DNA of 64,000 nt from a virus. The stretch spans positions 1 through 64,000 of the IMG/VR virus record IMGVR_UViG_3300049845_000008. The stretch is one strand, 5' to 3'. Positions 3,186 through 52,900 of the stretch are shown here, in pieces. The notes under the pieces were generated by a model. The model was not told the origin of the DNA. It did not search any database and saw nothing but the letters and a program-made list of their open reading frames with translations. Each line of letters opens with the position of its first letter. Within the stretch, counting starts at the first letter, position 1. The position numbers were made by a program, and so were the translations under genes.

Positions 3186-4601
3186 TCAGGCTTCCGGAAC
3201 AAGGAACCCGTGATTGCCGACAGTTTCATCGAAGATGAGCATCGCAGACTTCGCAGCCTTGATCTGTGCATACGTTACCGCAGTCTTGCGGTCGAACGCA
3301 TCGACAATGTAGCAAGCCTTTGCATCATCCTTGAAGATGGATACCGGAGTCTTGTACTTGGCGGCGAGCATCGTCACCATGTCATCGAATTCCTTCGCTT
3401 CGGGCATCTTGCCTTCCGCTTCCACCTTGAACGCTTCCGCGTCGATCTTGCTGTACAAGTCGAGGAATGCGGTCTTCGTTTCCGCATCGAACCGGTTGAG
3501 GCACTTTTCGATTGCTTTCATGCGATTCTTCTTGAAGATCTTGAAAGCCTTGGCAATGTGCACAAGGCGACGGGTGGAAATGATTTCATCCACTGCGCCA
3601 TCCTTGAAGGTCTTGCGAATGGCTTCCGCCCACGTTACCAGACGGTCGATAAAATCGTCGTCCGAGATTTCCAACGCTTCGAAATTCTTCGCGAGAATTC
3701 GGCGTTCGGTCTTCGCATCCGGATAGTCCTGCTCTTCCGTAAGAGCAAAACGTTCAAGCATGGCTTCGTTCATGACGTTCGCACCGAGGTAGCGACCATC
3801 CGCGTCACCCTTGCCCTTAGTGTTAGCCGTTGCGCAAATCTGGAAACCGAATGCCGGGTGGACGATTTCGCCGGTCTTCTTATCGAAGTACGGCTTGCCT
3901 TCTAGAATCGGCTGCAAGCAAAGCAAGTCTTCGGTGCCAAGGTCAACTTCATCCAGAAGTAGAACCGCACCGCGCCGCATCGCAGTCAACACCGGACCTT
4001 CGCGGCGAATCGTAGAACCATCGATCAGTTCGTAAGAGCCGATCAGGTCCGTTTCATCGGTGCGCTTAGTGATGTTCACGCGAATGACTTCGCGCCCAAG
4101 GGACGCGCAAACCTGCTCCACCATCAGGGTCTTACCGTTGCCTGAGTGACCCTGAATAAAAACAGGGTAGAAGAGTTTTGAGTTTATGATATCCCGAAGG
4201 TCATCGAAGAAACCAAACGGAACGTAGGTGTCGAGCCGATCCGGAACAAAGGATTCGGTGACGTTGAGCGCACGCTTCGAAGCAATCTGCACAACGGCAG
4301 CGGATTGCACCATAGCCGGTTCTTCCGCTTCGATCTTGTCGAGCGCCGCCGCGATTGCGTGGCTCATGGTGTTCTTTTTCAGGAGCGCGGAACGCGAGCA
4401 AAGTCGATACTTGCCGCGAGCAAACTTGCGCTTGTCGTCGCGCAGAATGAAATGCGGAACGGGCAACCCCTTGGACTCCGCGAAGTCAAGGATTTGCTTG
4501 GACGTTGCTGTATCGCCAAATTCGGCAATCAGGTCATCAAGGAATTTTTGCTGCTGTTCCACGGTGTAATTCGGAGTGCGTGCCATATCGGAGAATGCCA
4601 T
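3186..4601 (-). CDS. cobS-like: MoxR/CobS-like AAA+ ATPase
   Basis: This 471-residue ATPase resembles CobS, the AAA+ subunit of aerobic cobaltochelatase, and phage CobS homologues. After an N-terminal segment of about 75 residues, possibly a small DNA- or protein-binding domain, the AAA+ module shows Walker A GHSGNGKT (151-158), Walker B LLLDEVD (214-220), a sensor-1 ATAN (257-260) and an Arg finger-like ER (283-284). MoxR-family ATPases work with a VWA-domain partner, and such a protein is encoded just upstream at 5620-7968. The two genes share a homologous leader (4599-4683 and 7966-8052). No other cobalamin gene is visible, so a remodelling role unrelated to B12 is as likely as metal insertion. 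Confidence 0.85.
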   Translation of the reverse strand: MAFSDMARTPNYTVEQQQKFLDDLIAEFGDTATSKQILDFAESKGLPVPHFILRDDKRKFARGKYRLCSRSALLKKNTMSHAIAAALDKIEAEEPAMVQSAAVVQIASKRALNVTESFVPDRLDTYVPFGFFDDLRDIINSKLFYPVFIQGHSGNGKTLMVEQVCASLGREVIRVNITKRTDETDLIGSYELIDGSTIRREGPVLTAMRRGAVLLLDEVDLGTEDLLCLQPILEGKPYFDKKTGEIVHPAFGFQICATANTKGKGDADGRYLGANVMNEAMLERFALTEEQDYPDAKTERRILAKNFEALEISDDDFIDRLVTWAEAIRKTFKDGAVDEIISTRRLVHIAKAFKIFKKNRMKAIEKCLNRFDAETKTAFLDLYSKIDAEAFKVEAEGKMPEAKEFDDMVTMLAAKYKTPVSIFKDDAKACYIVDAFDRKTAVTYAQIKAAKSAMLIFDETVGNHGFLVPEA

Positions 4602-11396: not shown

Positions 11397-11485
11397 AACT
11401 TAACACCCATGAAATAGAGAACTACCTCTACCACGAAAACAATGAACATGGCGATGAACACGCCTTGGGCTATTCTCTTAGTCAA
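11393..11485 (-). CDS. Possible hydrophobic microprotein between gp55 and gp47
   Basis: A 30-codon frame starts at TTG 11485, with GGAG seven bases upstream inside the gp55 end, and stops within the TTG of gp47. It reads MTKRIAQG and then a hydrophobic stretch (VFIAMFIVFVVEVVLYFMG), i.e. a basic N terminus and one membrane helix. An internal ATG at 11449 is an alternative start, giving about 18 residues. Double overlap with both neighbours and the membrane-helix composition support it. The non-ATG start and short length keep it uncertain. It could also be just a spacer that couples gp55 and gp47 translation. Confidence 0.4.
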   Translation of the reverse strand: MTKRIAQGVFIAMFIVFVVEVVLYFMGVKF

Positions 11486-12011
11486 TGAACTTCTCCAATC
11501 CTTTTGCGGCTGCGACCTTGGCTTTCTTTACTGCTTTCGCATCTTCGAATTTCTTGATGAATTCGCTGATGTTTTCATACATTTCAAACTGCCGGGTATT
11601 GCCGTCGTCGGATTCCATCTGATCAAACTCATCCAAGATGCCATGCAACTCAGTTGACTTATACTTCACATAGAGTTCTTTCTTTTCGAACTTAATGCGC
11701 CTCAAGAATGCATAATAGCATATTGTCGAGAAATATGCAAATGGATTCTTGGATTTCGCAGGATTAAAGTTATCCACGTAGCGCAGACAGTTTTCAATGG
11801 CATCGTTCACCATTTCGTCCCGCCATGAGTAGGTCAGGAAATTATACTTATGACTCATATTCTCTGCGATCAGCAGAAAGCACTTGCCAATGTACTCAGG
11901 CACGCGAGGCTTCGGTGCCTTCTCGCGCTTGGCTTTGCGGACAGCCTTGCGATAGGCTGTAATCTCCTTTAGAAAGAGTTTGTTGTCAACGTAGTTATTA
12001 GTTTTAGCCAT
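11478..12011 (-). CDS. 55: Late-transcription sigma factor gp55
   Basis: A 177-residue protein similar to T4 gp55 (185). It is a minimal sigma70-family factor that directs host RNA polymerase to late promoters with help from gp33 and the gp45 clamp. Family signs are the region-2-like stretch YSWRDEMVNDAIENCLRYVD with the aromatic-rich FAYFSTICYYAFLRRI that melts and reads the -10 element, plus a charged C-terminal tail that binds the polymerase flap and clamp. The ten [C/A]TAAATA elements in this window are its expected targets. It lies between the unknown protein gene at 12092 and gp47. Confidence 0.9.
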   Translation of the reverse strand: MAKTNNYVDNKLFLKEITAYRKAVRKAKREKAPKPRVPEYIGKCFLLIAENMSHKYNFLTYSWRDEMVNDAIENCLRYVDNFNPAKSKNPFAYFSTICYYAFLRRIKFEKKELYVKYKSTELHGILDEFDQMESDDGNTRQFEMYENISEFIKKFEDAKAVKKAKVAAAKGLEKFID

Positions 12012-12020
12012 GATTTAGAT

Positions 12021-12049
12021 TTGACAGAACCTCGACTGATGTGTATAAT
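12021..12049 (+). promoter_or_regulatory. Perfect sigma70 consensus promoter, antisense to the gene cluster
   Basis: On the plus strand TTGACA (12021-12026), a spacer of exactly 17 bases and TATAAT (12044-12049) form an exact consensus promoter in the gap between gp55 and the next gene. It points right, toward the 3' ends of the minus-strand genes at 12092 and 12463. No plus-strand gene follows. A transcript would be antisense to both. Confidence 0.65.
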
Positions 12050-12091
12050 GAGCGTGTGGCTCTTTGAAGGGTTGATTTAATAAGAAGGGAA

Positions 12092-12466
12092 TCAATTGGG
12101 CTTAGTAGAAGGATCACGGAGAAGAAAGGGAACAACCTTATCTCCTTTAGACTTAGGAGCCTTTCTAGGCGTAACAGAGTAGAAGAACTCAGCAGCACTG
12201 GTAAACTCTTCCTTGAAAGTGTCTTTCACATCCGTAGAGAACATAATAAACTCCTTGGGAAGAAAGATGGTGTCATTGGCACAGACGATGGGTGGAACCC
12301 ACTCTCTCACATTGAGCATCTGCCTTCCTTCAATAATCTCATTGTCCACGGTAAAGGCTAATGGGCGTTTGATCTGAATATGTCCCTTTGTGACCTGAAC
12401 CTCAAATGCGACAATATCCTCGTTGGTCTTTAGCTTGTAGAACTTGATAGGGAATTGGGTGTTCAT
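12092..12466 (-). CDS. Hypothetical phage protein, small beta-barrel-like (124 aa)
   Basis: A 124-residue soluble protein with alternating strands (KFYKLKTNEDIVAFEVQ, GHIQIKRPLAFTV) that recalls the Sm-like small beta-barrel proteins common in T4-like marine phages. It has no catalytic motif. The C terminus is basic and probably disordered (RKAPKSKGDK). It starts four bases inside the UvsW stop, so is co-translated with the helicase. Function is unknown; nucleic-acid binding is only a guess from fold impression and context. The plus-strand promoter at 12021-12049 would direct a transcript complementary to it. Confidence 0.65.
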   Translation of the reverse strand: MNTQFPIKFYKLKTNEDIVAFEVQVTKGHIQIKRPLAFTVDNEIIEGRQMLNVREWVPPIVCANDTIFLPKEFIMFSTDVKDTFKEEFTSAAEFFYSVTPRKAPKSKGDKVVPFLLRDPSTKPN

Positions 12467-13917
12467 TGGCTTAGTCCTATGTTGATTGATTTGATGGGAA
12501 ACTTTTCTTCGTTGTAAATGCGAACTCGTTCCTCATAGTGTTTCAATGCGAAGTTGACGTATGCTCCATACCGAAGATCGTCAACAATGTCATAAAGGAC
12601 TGCCTTACTCTTATTCTCACCGAGGCGTAATCCTCTGCCGATGGACTGTAATGTTCTAATCTGACTCTTCGTTGGTGAGGCGAAGATAACATTATGTAGG
12701 TGTTTTATGTTGATGCCTGTGGAGAACGTGCCATAGGAAGCCACGATCACCGAGTCTGTCTCATCCTCAGTGATTCTACGTACTTCCTCTCGGTCAAGAG
12801 TCTCTACGTCACCATGGATGAAATGCACCTTCCGATTCGGCAGACGATCCTTGATCAACTGGTGCAGAATCCTTCCGTGCTTGTCCACGTAATTATACAG
12901 GATCAGCGTGTTGCCGTCAAGTGATTCTGCTAATTTCGCTATGAATTTGTTGCGTGCTTCGTTGGCACAGAGGAAGGAAATCTCGTCCGGATAGGACTGT
13001 CCCTTGACTACCTTAGTGACCTCTTCCGGATACTTTAATACCAGACACTTGATTTCAAGTTTAGCGAGGTATCCTTTATTTTGTAGCTCCTGTGTGGAAG
13101 CCACACGCTGCACCGGACCAAACAATCCCTCTAGGACTAACTTGTGTACCTTAGACCCATCGAGGGTGCCGGTAGTTCCAATGCGGTAGTCGCAATTAAC
13201 TAGCTGCTCCATGATGTGCTTGAGGGAATCAGCCTTGAACTGGTGAGCCTCGTCACCGATCACGTAGTCGAACTGAGCAAAGTATTTCTTCGGCAGATCA
13301 TAGACTGACTGCCACGTAGAGATAACCAACGGCGCATAGGCATCCGTCGTGAATCCCTGATAGATGCGTTGGCAGTTCTTCTCTACGTCCCACCCGTAAG
13401 AGGCAAAGTCAGAGTACATCTGCTCGACAAGAGAGGTAGTCGGCACGATCAGCAGCCCACGCTTCTTACCGCGTTCGATCAGCCATCGTGATATCATGTA
13501 GATGATCATCGACTTGCCGGATGCGGTAGGCGAAATGACGATGCCACGCTTCTTAGTAAGGCTCCATAGATAGGCTACCCATTGATAATCGCGGGGAGCC
13601 ATAGAAACCTTCCATGACTCAACGTGTTCTTTCTGTGGTAGAAGGGCGATATTACCCTTGACAAGCGTTGAACTGTAAGTGTAGTTGAAGTCCTTGGCGA
13701 ACTGTCGAACGTATGGTTCTAATCCGGCGTAGATCTTGTGAGTTCTAAGATGGAATAGACGAATCTTCCCGTCCCAATACTTCTTTTTCTCTTTGGGAAG
13801 GAACTTAGCGGAGGGTACTGAATAGGTGAAGAACTCTGATAGCTCCTGTGCGGTGCTATCCTCGCATCTTATCTTCGCCCATACGTTACTGACTTGTTCA
13901 AAATGGATATCACTCAC
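12463..13917 (-). CDS. uvsW: Helicase UvsW (RecG-like, ATP-dependent)
   Basis: A 484-residue superfamily-2 helicase (T4 UvsW has about 503). UvsW unwinds branched DNA such as R-loops and Holliday junctions, switching T4 from origin- to recombination-dependent replication. It shows motif I PTASGKS (130-136), DEAH (222-225), a TGT motif III and a late helicase C-terminal domain (ASYGTFSTGINIK, QSIGRGLRLGE with the motif VI arginines). The N-terminal domain (1-105) is basic and matches the UvsW DNA-binding domain. The start is GTG at 13917, overlapping the preceding microprotein stop (GTGA). Confidence 0.93.
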   Translation of the reverse strand: MSDIHFEQVSNVWAKIRCEDSTAQELSEFFTYSVPSAKFLPKEKKKYWDGKIRLFHLRTHKIYAGLEPYVRQFAKDFNYTYSSTLVKGNIALLPQKEHVESWKVSMAPRDYQWVAYLWSLTKKRGIVISPTASGKSMIIYMISRWLIERGKKRGLLIVPTTSLVEQMYSDFASYGWDVEKNCQRIYQGFTTDAYAPLVISTWQSVYDLPKKYFAQFDYVIGDEAHQFKADSLKHIMEQLVNCDYRIGTTGTLDGSKVHKLVLEGLFGPVQRVASTQELQNKGYLAKLEIKCLVLKYPEEVTKVVKGQSYPDEISFLCANEARNKFIAKLAESLDGNTLILYNYVDKHGRILHQLIKDRLPNRKVHFIHGDVETLDREEVRRITEDETDSVIVASYGTFSTGINIKHLHNVIFASPTKSQIRTLQSIGRGLRLGENKSKAVLYDIVDDLRYGAYVNFALKHYEERVRIYNEEKFPIKSINIGLSQ

Positions 13918-14676: not shown

Positions 14677-14705
14677 ATCATACCATATTTCGGTTAGAGA
14701 GTCAA
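14677..14705 (-). promoter_or_regulatory. Sigma70-like promoter of the uvsY-uvsW unit
   Basis: TTGACT (14700-14705), a 17-base spacer and -10 TATGAT (14677-14682) with an upstream TG (TGGTATGAT), i.e. an extended -10. It spans the 3' end of the preceding late gene and drives uvsY, 32 bases from the -10 to the ATG. The -35 TTGACT is identical to those at 2317-2322 and 4638-4643. Confidence 0.75.
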
Positions 14706-15250
14706 ATTCTTTCGATGTTGTAATACGAATATCTGAAAGTTACGTCGGATGTGATGATGTTCTCAGCCGAGTCGAGCGAGCTAAATTGAATTCCACCTAG
14801 ACTTGTCGGGAACAAATCTTTGTATTGAATGCGGACATTAGGGTTATTCTTATTAGTGAATACTGTCATGGAGGCGTCCGAATACTGTGGCGGCAGTTTC
14901 ACACCCGATCCACGCCGAACCTGAGTGTCACGGAACTTGGTGTCCATCTTGGCATACTCTTCGAATTCCTTGGGGAAGGTCATCGCACGAATCCAGTCAT
15001 GAATAGCTTCCCAATCCTTGAGGTCTTCGTCAATCAACATGGTCACGTTCAGGGTATCGTAGATAGCCTTTTCGCCCGGTTGCCATAGATCGACAAACGG
15101 CGTCGGACGCTGAATTTCTGTCAAGGAAATGCCGGGGAGATTTGCAGTCTGGCAAAAGAAAGTCAACCCCGGCAGGCGCATGAAGTTGAGTTTGAACTTC
15201 GTGCTTTGCAGGATATCACGATTCGATGGATTGCGGGTGATTGCGCTCAT
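14702..15250 (-). CDS. Probable tail/baseplate structural protein (182 aa)
   Basis: A 182-residue protein (NRDILQSTKFKLNFMRLPGL, FCQTANLPGISLTEI) resembling gp19-fold tail-tube-like or tail-associated structural proteins. The pattern of N-terminal strand, aromatic loop and C-terminal FRYSYYNIE fits a tube-protein fold, comparable with gp19 in this window. It has its own late promoter (15276-15282), 26 bases upstream of its ATG, and lies after the gp23 terminator. So it is expressed late and independently of gp23. Tail-tube initiator or baseplate protein is a plausible role; it is not identifiable as a specific T4 gene product from sequence alone. Confidence 0.6.
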   Translation of the reverse strand: MSAITRNPSNRDILQSTKFKLNFMRLPGLTFFCQTANLPGISLTEIQRPTPFVDLWQPGEKAIYDTLNVTMLIDEDLKDWEAIHDWIRAMTFPKEFEEYAKMDTKFRDTQVRRGSGVKLPPQYSDASMTVFTNKNNPNVRIQYKDLFPTSLGGIQFSSLDSAENIITSDVTFRYSYYNIERI

Positions 15251-49962: not shown

Positions 49963-52900
49963 CAGCCTTCCGGAGTAGCAATGATTCTCAAGTTCTGTAC
50001 CCAAGGCGCAACAGTGGTATCGACTGCGGTGAGGCAGACCTTGACTGCGAAGTATTTGAACTTGCCGCCGATTGGATACTGAATACCGTTTTCCATGTAC
50101 TTGAGTTCATTCTCAAGGAGGTCTGGACGGAACTGCAATTCGATGACCTGACGAGCATCCTTGGACTTCTTATCCACCACCTTGTTCATGAGAACCCAAG
50201 ACTTGTCGGCAAAACGCTCTGGATCTTCGGATCCTAGCACCTTGTAGTAGCAATGAACGTCAGTTCCGTTAGGACGGACAACATCCATGAACACGCGAAG
50301 GTCGCCTGCTTCGAAGCCATCTTCCAGTGCGATCTGGCGAGTGAGGTAGCGGCAGAGGATGTTTCCGCCACGCTTGCCGTCTTCGCCCTGTGCAACAGCA
50401 GCGGCTCGGATCATGCCGGAAGCGGCATTGCCGATAGCCACGTTGAGTCTTGGCGTCTTGATGTAGCCGGAACCTTCCGAGGTCATGACGATGTAGTTGA
50501 CCGTGTTGGATGCATCCGTGTTTGCGACTGCAAAGCCTTCTGCGCCCGTACCGAACTCATTGGCTGCGACCGAGACATAGTAGAAGCCGACGTTGAAGTT
50601 GTTGGCTAGGTAAGTCTCACGGAACAACTGAGCGATGTTGTTCTGAGTGTTATTAGCACCACCGAACACCACGTTGCCCGAGGTCGAAACTGCGTTGTAG
50701 CCTGCACCCGGATTGGTGATCGAAATGACGGTATTGGAGATACCTGCATTGTTGATGGCATGGTCAGCCGGAACAACCGCAAGGGTTTCCAGATTGAAGA
50801 TAGGCGAAACGTCCGTATCCGAAGTGGCGAACTCTGCAAGCACCTGAACACTGTTCGCATTACCCGTCAGGAGTGTGCGAGCGTTGTTGAAGTTAGCCGA
50901 GGTTTCCTTGTTCGAAGCGTCCATCAGGTCGCCATACTTGAAGATGGTCTGTGGCTTGATAGCCACGTAGTTGTCAAAGGCAGCGTTAGCCTTGAAGACA
51001 CCCTTTACCTTGAAGTCGATATCGGACACAGGGAAGGAGAGCTTGTCTGCGTTGATGAACATACGATCTACGTTCATGTCGAAGGTAGGCACTTCCTTGA
51101 TCTGGAACGATGCTGAACCGGTCGAAGAGAACTTCGCCTTGTTGATGACGAACATGAGGTCTTCGTTCTGATACGGAGTCCATGTCGTCGCGTTCTGGCT
51201 ACGGAAGAACGATCCGGCGTATGGCTGCTCGGAGATTCTCTGAGGAGGATCTGCGCCTAGCACGTTGCCGCCGAGTTCTGCAATGTAGCACTCGTACTCA
51301 GGCGAGTCAGAGACTACGAGCAATGCGTATTCAGTATCCGGTGCAAGAAACACAGGGTCACGGAAGGTGAACTTCGTGATCGTGTTTGGATCGTCGTAGG
51401 AAGGAGAGGTCGAAATCTTAACGTCCTTACACTTGACCGTGGCTTCTGCAAGATAGTTCTGCGTAGGATAGCCGTTGACCACTTCTGCGATCTTGACCTG
51501 TACAGGCAACTGCAACGATGCGCGTGCGACCGATGGCTTTGCTCCGAAGAACAATTCCACAGAGGTCACGAACACACCGTAGGACACCTTGTTGGTGTCT
51601 GGCTTTGGAGTCCAGAAGGTCTGTGCAATCGGGTCGCGGGATGGGCGACGAGGAATTAGAGATACCGGCGTGCGAACAACCGGCGCAGCCACAGGCGCAG
51701 GCGAAACTGGACGCTGCGTTGGTGGTGGCGGAACAACCGGATTGTTAGGTGGCGTTTCAGGCAGCGGACGCATGATAGGAGTGAGGTTGACACGCTGACT
51801 AGAATTGCGCAACCCACCCGAAGAGAATCGTGCGGAAGCCTTCATCGTGAAGTCATCAGAGTCCAGACTATCTACGTCGGTGATGGTCAGCAGACGCTCG
51901 CCCGTGCGGAACTTGAAGTTAGGCTCTTCTGGAACGTTGAGAATACCGTTGAGGGATCCGTTCTCATCGACGTAGAGGTTGCCGATGGAATACTTCGTGT
52001 TCGAAGAAGGGTCAACCGAGAATGCGGAAGAAACGGTCACACGCTTGCCCGATACAGCCGTGACGCGGCGGAACTGTCCGAGTCCCGTTCCGGAGGTCAG
52101 ATACATGACGTTACCGACTGCATTGGTGTTGGCTGTTGCGTTCAGATAGACGTACTGCCCACCGCCTTCGATGGTGTTGGCTGTTGCATTAGCCACGACA
52201 CCCGAAGAGTGTTCATAGAGAACCACAGCCACGTTCTTCGACGCCGTGGTTACAGAAACGATGCGGTTGTTGGAAGCAATGTCTACGAGCTTGACACCCG
52301 AAACGCGGAACTCAGGAGTCGAAGTGTTCGAAGCATTCCAGAGGGTTGCGCGAATGTTAGCCGCAGAGGAGTTGGTGTTCATTCTGCCGTTGATTGGGCT
52401 GATGGCTAGAGAACCGGTTCCTGAATCGTAGTATTCAACCTTACCGGTGAACACTGCGTTGTTGAATTCTGCTCGTCCGGTCGTGGACTGATAGACCAAA
52501 TCGCCGGGATTGAAGTGCAGCGAACTCAGTGCCACGTTCATCTGTGCAAGGTTAGCATTGATGAAGTTCTCAGACACGTAGAGGATGTTCTCACCCGAAG
52601 AGCCGATGACCTTCATGAACGTCTTCGTGTTGGCATTGATCACACCTTCGTTCATCGTGAAAATGTCAGACGTATTAGAACTGACTTCGCGAGTGACGGA
52701 AGCTGAGAAGGTGGTGATGCCGGTGTTCTTTTCGATGTAGACGTTGGCTGAACTGTCGAAGTTGCCGCTCATCGCGAAGATGACCAACTGCCCGGTCGCT
52801 GAGTTGTAGGACTTGACGTTTGCGGAGAAGGTTGGGGCTACGTTCGAACTACCCTGATAGAAGTAGTCCGACGATGCGGCTGTGTACGATGTGTTAGGAA

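Follow-up and report, generated by a model that had tools for sequence, protein, structure and literature searches.

The window, by which we mean the whole stretch of 64,000 bases that was analysed, contains on its minus strand a gp23-like major head protein, a tail-tube-like protein, uvsY, uvsW, the 124-residue gene here called X, gp55, 47, and 46. The names gp55 and uvsW, already used in the preliminary description, proved right by PHROG matches, and the following features lie at the junction of uvsW, X, and gp55:

11478..12011, minus strand: gp55, late sigma factor (PHROG match), its ATG 9 bases from the -35 hexamer
12012..12091, no strand: gap of 80 bases between gene X and gp55, holding the promoter
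12021..12026, plus strand: -35 hexamer TTGACA, read from the sequence
12044..12049, plus strand: -10 hexamer TATAAT, read from the sequence; of the form TA...T in relatives
12050..12062, plus strand: inverted repeat GAGC-gtgtg-GCTC directly behind the -10, spanning the predicted start
12056, plus strand: the G in TGT, 7th base past the -10, predicted as the transcription start; placed by spacing, not a mapped 5' end
12092..12466, minus strand: gene X, 124 aa, first gene opposite the predicted antisense RNA (weak phrog_527 match)
12463..13917, minus strand: uvsW helicase, second gene opposite the predicted antisense RNA (PHROG match)
12892..12920, minus strand: sigma70-like TTGACG-17-TATAAT inside uvsW, facing gp55 and convergent with the antisense promoter

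Gene X occupies the position of the cyanophage 'methylamine utilization' gene. With the S-CAM4 protein as query, its family among GenBank phages was found in cyanophages only (413/413 records), and the window's own X as query gave no GenBank phage match at the same sensitivity. In Syn9, the junction divides the late structural block (ending in uvsY, uvsW, X) from gp55, 47, 46, 45, 44, and polymerase, and in the window the promoter lies where the late structural block (gp23 ... uvsY, uvsW, X) adjoins the replication block (gp55, 47, 46 ...). The tail-tube-like protein (14702-15250, minus strand) is encoded in the place that a gp3-like gene takes in Syn9, with the major head gene and uvsY on either side, and a CobS-like 'porphyrin biosynthesis' PHROG match was found at 3186-4601 (minus strand), as in Syn9.

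The gap of 80 bases between gp55 and the next gene holds on the plus strand the exact sequence TTGACA-GAACCTCGACTGATGTG-TATAAT (12021-12049), with all 12 consensus bases and a 17-base spacer, just as had been described. It is the sole match to TTGACA-N15..19-TATAAT in the window, where dinucleotide shuffles give an expectation of 0.01, and it is the single exact consensus with a 16-18 spacer in the full record of 73,810 bases. The statement that it is the strongest promoter-like signal in the window also holds, as the runner-up sigma70-type sites reach 11/12 (one site) and 10/12 (four sites), all of them on the minus strand.

For the comparison with relatives, 171 sequences were collected, seven without gp55 were left out, and the remaining 164 loci were reduced to 113 distinct uvsW-X-gp55 junctions (<85% identity). 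An antisense sigma70-type promoter scoring at least 9/12 is present in 112 of them. Among these 112, TTGACA is exact in 109, the spacer is 17 bases in 107, and a TG step with its G at the 7th or 8th base past the -10, the predicted start, occurs in all; a spacer of 17 was the best one in 99/113 junctions even when 12-22 was permitted. With TTGACA and TATAAT hexamers at a distance of 17 bases, within the 16-18 expected, the site is of the host sigma70 (SigA-type) promoter class, and may be active early. The hexamers and the 17-base spacing are kept across relatives while the spacer letters drift, and in close relatives (gp55 79-85% identical) TTGACA-17-TATA(A/C)T recurs in 8/8 loci with a changed spacer. 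Within the 120 bases before gp55, the antisense score was at least 10/12 in 108/113 junctions versus 4.1% of shuffles, and control windows from the same loci scored at least 10 in 166/4320 cases; scores of at least 11 were reached by 71/113 junctions versus 11/4320 control windows. Fifteen named GenBank cyanophages, picked from hit lists and not a random sample, include 14 with the site at 10/12 or better, such as Syn9 (predicted antisense start ~123698), P-HM2 (~120709), S-PM2, and P-SSM2.

Five of the 113 junctions (L018, L028, L042, L085, and L159) scored below 10 in the 120-base gap, and three of the 108 higher scorers had first matched a wrong nearby site. When these eight were re-examined by a wider search with a small score bonus for closeness to X, the site was found in seven: L028, L042, and L085, which carry additional genes ahead of gp55, and L159, which has a longer gap, all keep it beside X, and L018, where X abuts gp55, is the sole junction without it. 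Since L018 has no site and MC09 has only a 9/12 site with a spacer of 18, the antisense promoter can evidently be lost. The preliminary description had named a lack of conservation in related phages as an outcome that would speak against the promoter; as the site is kept in nearly every junction, this outcome did not occur. The probability that the window carries a chance match without function, for which nothing speaks except that weak sigma70-like sites are common in general, is practically nil, as conservation in the relatives and the expectation of 0.01 sites in the window refute it. We regard the antisense promoter as almost certainly genuine.

The distance from the -10 to the X stop has a median of 27 bp and a standard deviation of 8.4 (111 junctions; the site picker favoured sites near X), and that to the gp55 start has a median of 56 and a standard deviation of 22.1 (109 junctions, with three insertion lineages left out). 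In the window, the -10 sits 42 bp past the X stop. Insertion lineages comprise nine loci with a 316-aa gene, two with a 254-aa gene, and two with three genes, and in all of them the promoter stays beside X, ~0.8-2.9 kb from gp55. An insertion between the promoter and gp55 would leave the promoter beside X anyway. The insertions between promoter and gp55 in the L042 group, L085, L086, L028, and L029 mark this place as a spot of repeated gene gain.

The preliminary description held that no plus-strand gene follows the promoter, and this is confirmed, as the plus-strand ORFs oppose minus-strand genes and the ORF test in relatives gave no sign of an antisense gene. The longest antisense ORF beginning in the first 120 nt had a median of 21 codons (111 loci, from 111 of the 112 junctions with a site) versus 30 in the control (103 loci), so that a plus-strand gene or small protein could be rejected. 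Terminator and inverted-repeat tests covered 105 of 108 loci (L122, L141, and L143 left out), and fold scores the first 60. No terminator follows the start in 88/105 loci, the overall count being only slightly above shuffles, and the first 100 nt have no significant fold in 54/60 loci and have one in 6/60; a short RNA of defined extent, ended by a terminator or marked by a fold, thus found little support in these loci. No A+T-rich unwinding element was seen, the first 80 nt having 66.3% A+T versus 66.8% deeper in. A codon test of 75 X proteins of 100-170 aa gave no extra synonymous conservation in X, and selection on an RNA inside X was rejected, codon identity near the 3' end exceeding that of the rest of X in the last 4 usable columns only. 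A known RNA family was likewise rejected, as the search returned five weak and implausible matches, all far below gathering scores. The start region has the form GTNNRGGTTCAAGG in many relatives, and the predicted RNA sequence is poorly conserved beyond it. With no extra synonymous conservation and terminators mostly absent, no defined RNA is visible, and the lack of an ORF and an A+T bias, and in most loci of a terminator and a fold, suggests for the putative RNA that it is probably an antisense transcript of the plain kind.

The inverted repeat across the start recurs with other letters. The arms are GAGTG/CGCTC in some relatives, ACGTGT-GCACGT in L004, AACAGT-GCTGTT in L127, and AACTCT-AGGGTT in most of the cyanophage set, so that paired arm changes are seen between lineages. 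When G.T pairs were allowed on the antisense strand, a 6-bp stem was found in 42/72 cyanophage-set junctions (shuffles ~3%), and when they were allowed on the sense strand, a stem of 6 pairs was found in 2/72; pairing therefore favours the antisense strand, though both counts are inflated by shared ancestry. Elsewhere in Syn9, a gene-facing promoter at 52741 (plus strand; L173 from 2741) has the start region AACACTGCCAGGGTT, almost the same as that of the antisense promoter.

The promoter faces X and uvsW from the opposite strand (start ~12056; X from 12092), and by the ORF test the predicted RNA encodes no protein, as would be expected of a cis-antisense element. The preliminary description had proposed an antisense RNA opposite the 124-residue gene and uvsW, or else a transcript that ends soon after its start; the facing direction and the conservation give partial support to the former, and the window contains no terminator that would end the predicted RNA early. 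Given these features, we tentatively favour the reading, to which we give somewhat less than even weight, that early transcription by the host polymerase into X and uvsW may keep uvsW expression low early. Soon after DNA entry, host RNA polymerase would start at ~12056 and run rightwards (plus strand) against X and uvsW; polymerase passage and the complementary RNA would hold the expression of both genes low while replication begins; later, with the polymerase turned to late promoters, the antisense promoter would fall silent and uvsW could be read from the late block. The occurrence in 112/113 junctions, the spacing, the near-fixed place behind X, and the block border are consistent with this reading, whereas we infer both the early firing and the repressive effect on uvsW. 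The rationale for uvsW is borrowed by analogy from T4, in which, according to passages of one account (PMC3016281), a late promoter drives uvsW and the protein unwinds the R-loops by which origins are primed; the cyanophage main texts searched for uvsW timing do not mention uvsW. A late-promoter motif search for uvsW, which covered NATAAATA and close forms, found the T4-late-promoter-like NATAAATA eight times on the minus strand of the window (53135, 49816, 24485, 22457, 20196, 19100, 9003, and 5309) and not once on the plus strand.

It is also possible, though on the whole unlikely, that the gene restrained by the antisense promoter is gp55, the late sigma factor itself. In most of the cyanophage set, the antisense promoter and a divergent sigma70 promoter for gp55 overlap, and in the named isolates the two -35 boxes are shared, back-to-back, or interleaved, so that two polymerases could hardly bind together; only one polymerase would then occupy the gap, and gp55 may also be affected. 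A sense sigma70-type site of at least 10/12 lies in the gap of 67/113 junctions, and 65 of these 67 belong to the set of 76 junctions that came from GenBank or from searches with cyanophage gp55. In the window clade (six junctions), such a site occurs in 0/6, and the window's -35 and the gp55 ATG are 9 bases apart. Here gp55 would have no room for a sigma70 promoter of its own, and its transcription, which might begin at the site inside uvsW, would have to pass across the antisense promoter, with the two transcriptions colliding. This TTGACG-17-TATAAT-like site scores 10-11/12 in 6/6 window-clade loci, where the encoded protein motif also constrains its letters, and it may be a candidate sense early promoter for X-gp55. 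A bidirectional promoter sharing the -10 in the window clade (minus-strand TTCAAA-15/16-TATACA) was rejected, having the wrong spacing and being broken in L003. Against an action on gp55 speaks the place of the promoter, which is fixed to X and not to gp55 and remains behind when genes are inserted; moreover, outside the cyanophage set most junctions keep the antisense site although their gap shows no sigma70 site in the sense direction.

The transcript could form an R-loop from which leading-strand synthesis is primed, in the manner of T4 origins, and UvsW, whose gene follows shortly downstream on the opposite strand, would remove it later. A noncoding, deeply conserved strong promoter fits such an origin, and T4 oriE is described in parts of one paper as needing an early promoter, with minimal oriF and oriG consisting of a promoter and an A+T-rich unwinding element (PMC3016281); the missing A+T-rich element, the cumulative GC skew of Syn9, which has no extreme near the junction, and the lack of a coding-strand switch at the Syn9 junction make an origin improbable. 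A trans-acting small RNA from the gap, processed or ended soon after its start, would agree with the start region kept in many relatives, but most loci have no terminator near the start or significant fold and the sequence drifts past the start, so that we consider this quite improbable. The inverted repeat could also serve as an operator or switch, binding a phage regulator or folding in the non-template strand, with the antisense start as by-product or readout. The frequency of the 6-bp stem, the paired changes between lineages, and the near-identical start region at the Syn9 promoter speak for it; however, the stem is missing in most of the 27 other junctions (the uvsW-retrieved set), single-strand DNA folding is above shuffles in the window only, and no RNA hairpin is expected from the antisense promoter, as the predicted start comes after the left arm; an operator seems very improbable to us. 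Early antisense transcription against uvsW remains the reading that we prefer. Its widest form, which we hold to be improbable as a whole, would be a family-wide fixed antisense switch at the late/replication border, anchored to the end of X, silencing uvsW early, competing with the late-sigma promoter, and tuned by the hairpin-forming start region, in which the departure of the host polymerase would set the change from origin- to recombination-driven replication together with late transcription.

The promoter lies at the transition of T4-like phages from replication to late expression, and it gives an exact base to inspect in the published infection expression data of P-HM2 (PMC5082946), Syn9, P-SSM2, and S-PM2. 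Its retention in 112 of the 113 junctions argues for selection on antisense transcription itself. We found no report of an antisense promoter at the uvsW-X-gp55 junction in the openly licensed literature, and the Syn9 start-site study may contain one; provisionally, the element appears to be a new cis-antisense promoter that stands out by how deeply it is conserved, while T4-like cyanophages are already known to make antisense RNA. According to a passage of PMC5780444 that cites another paper, T4-like middle promoters and motA and/or asiA are missing from cyanophages, and our results raise the question of how cyanophages without such middle promoters time UvsW and gp55.

Phage antisense transcription is usually known from single cases. 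Lambda antisense promoters such as pAQ oppose the main transcription and delay a regulator or late gene, an effect that has been measured; the present promoter similarly runs against the main transcription, but in an unrelated phage, with unrelated sequence and a predicted effect. Antisense transcription of T4 gene 32 has reportedly been seen, which is likewise antisense in a T4 gene, though a different one. The sigma70-type early promoters of T4-like cyanophages, such as those of Syn9, have the same hexamers, spacing, and host polymerase, and most of the strong Syn9 ones face with the genes, whereas the one described here faces against them. With T4 oriE it would share an early promoter, a transcript without gene function, and a place near recombination genes, but it differs from the T4 origins in having no A+T-rich unwinding element and no skew extreme at the junction (Syn9). 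Closest in kind is CfrI of S-PM2, described in parts of PMC2984593 as an antisense RNA of ~225 nt, which lies opposite psbA and the gene of a homing endonuclease and whose expression has been measured. Both are cis-antisense in T4-like cyanophages, opposite coding genes that they are proposed to regulate, whereas the predicted element reported here sits at the uvsW-X-gp55 junction and is kept in nearly all relatives tested.
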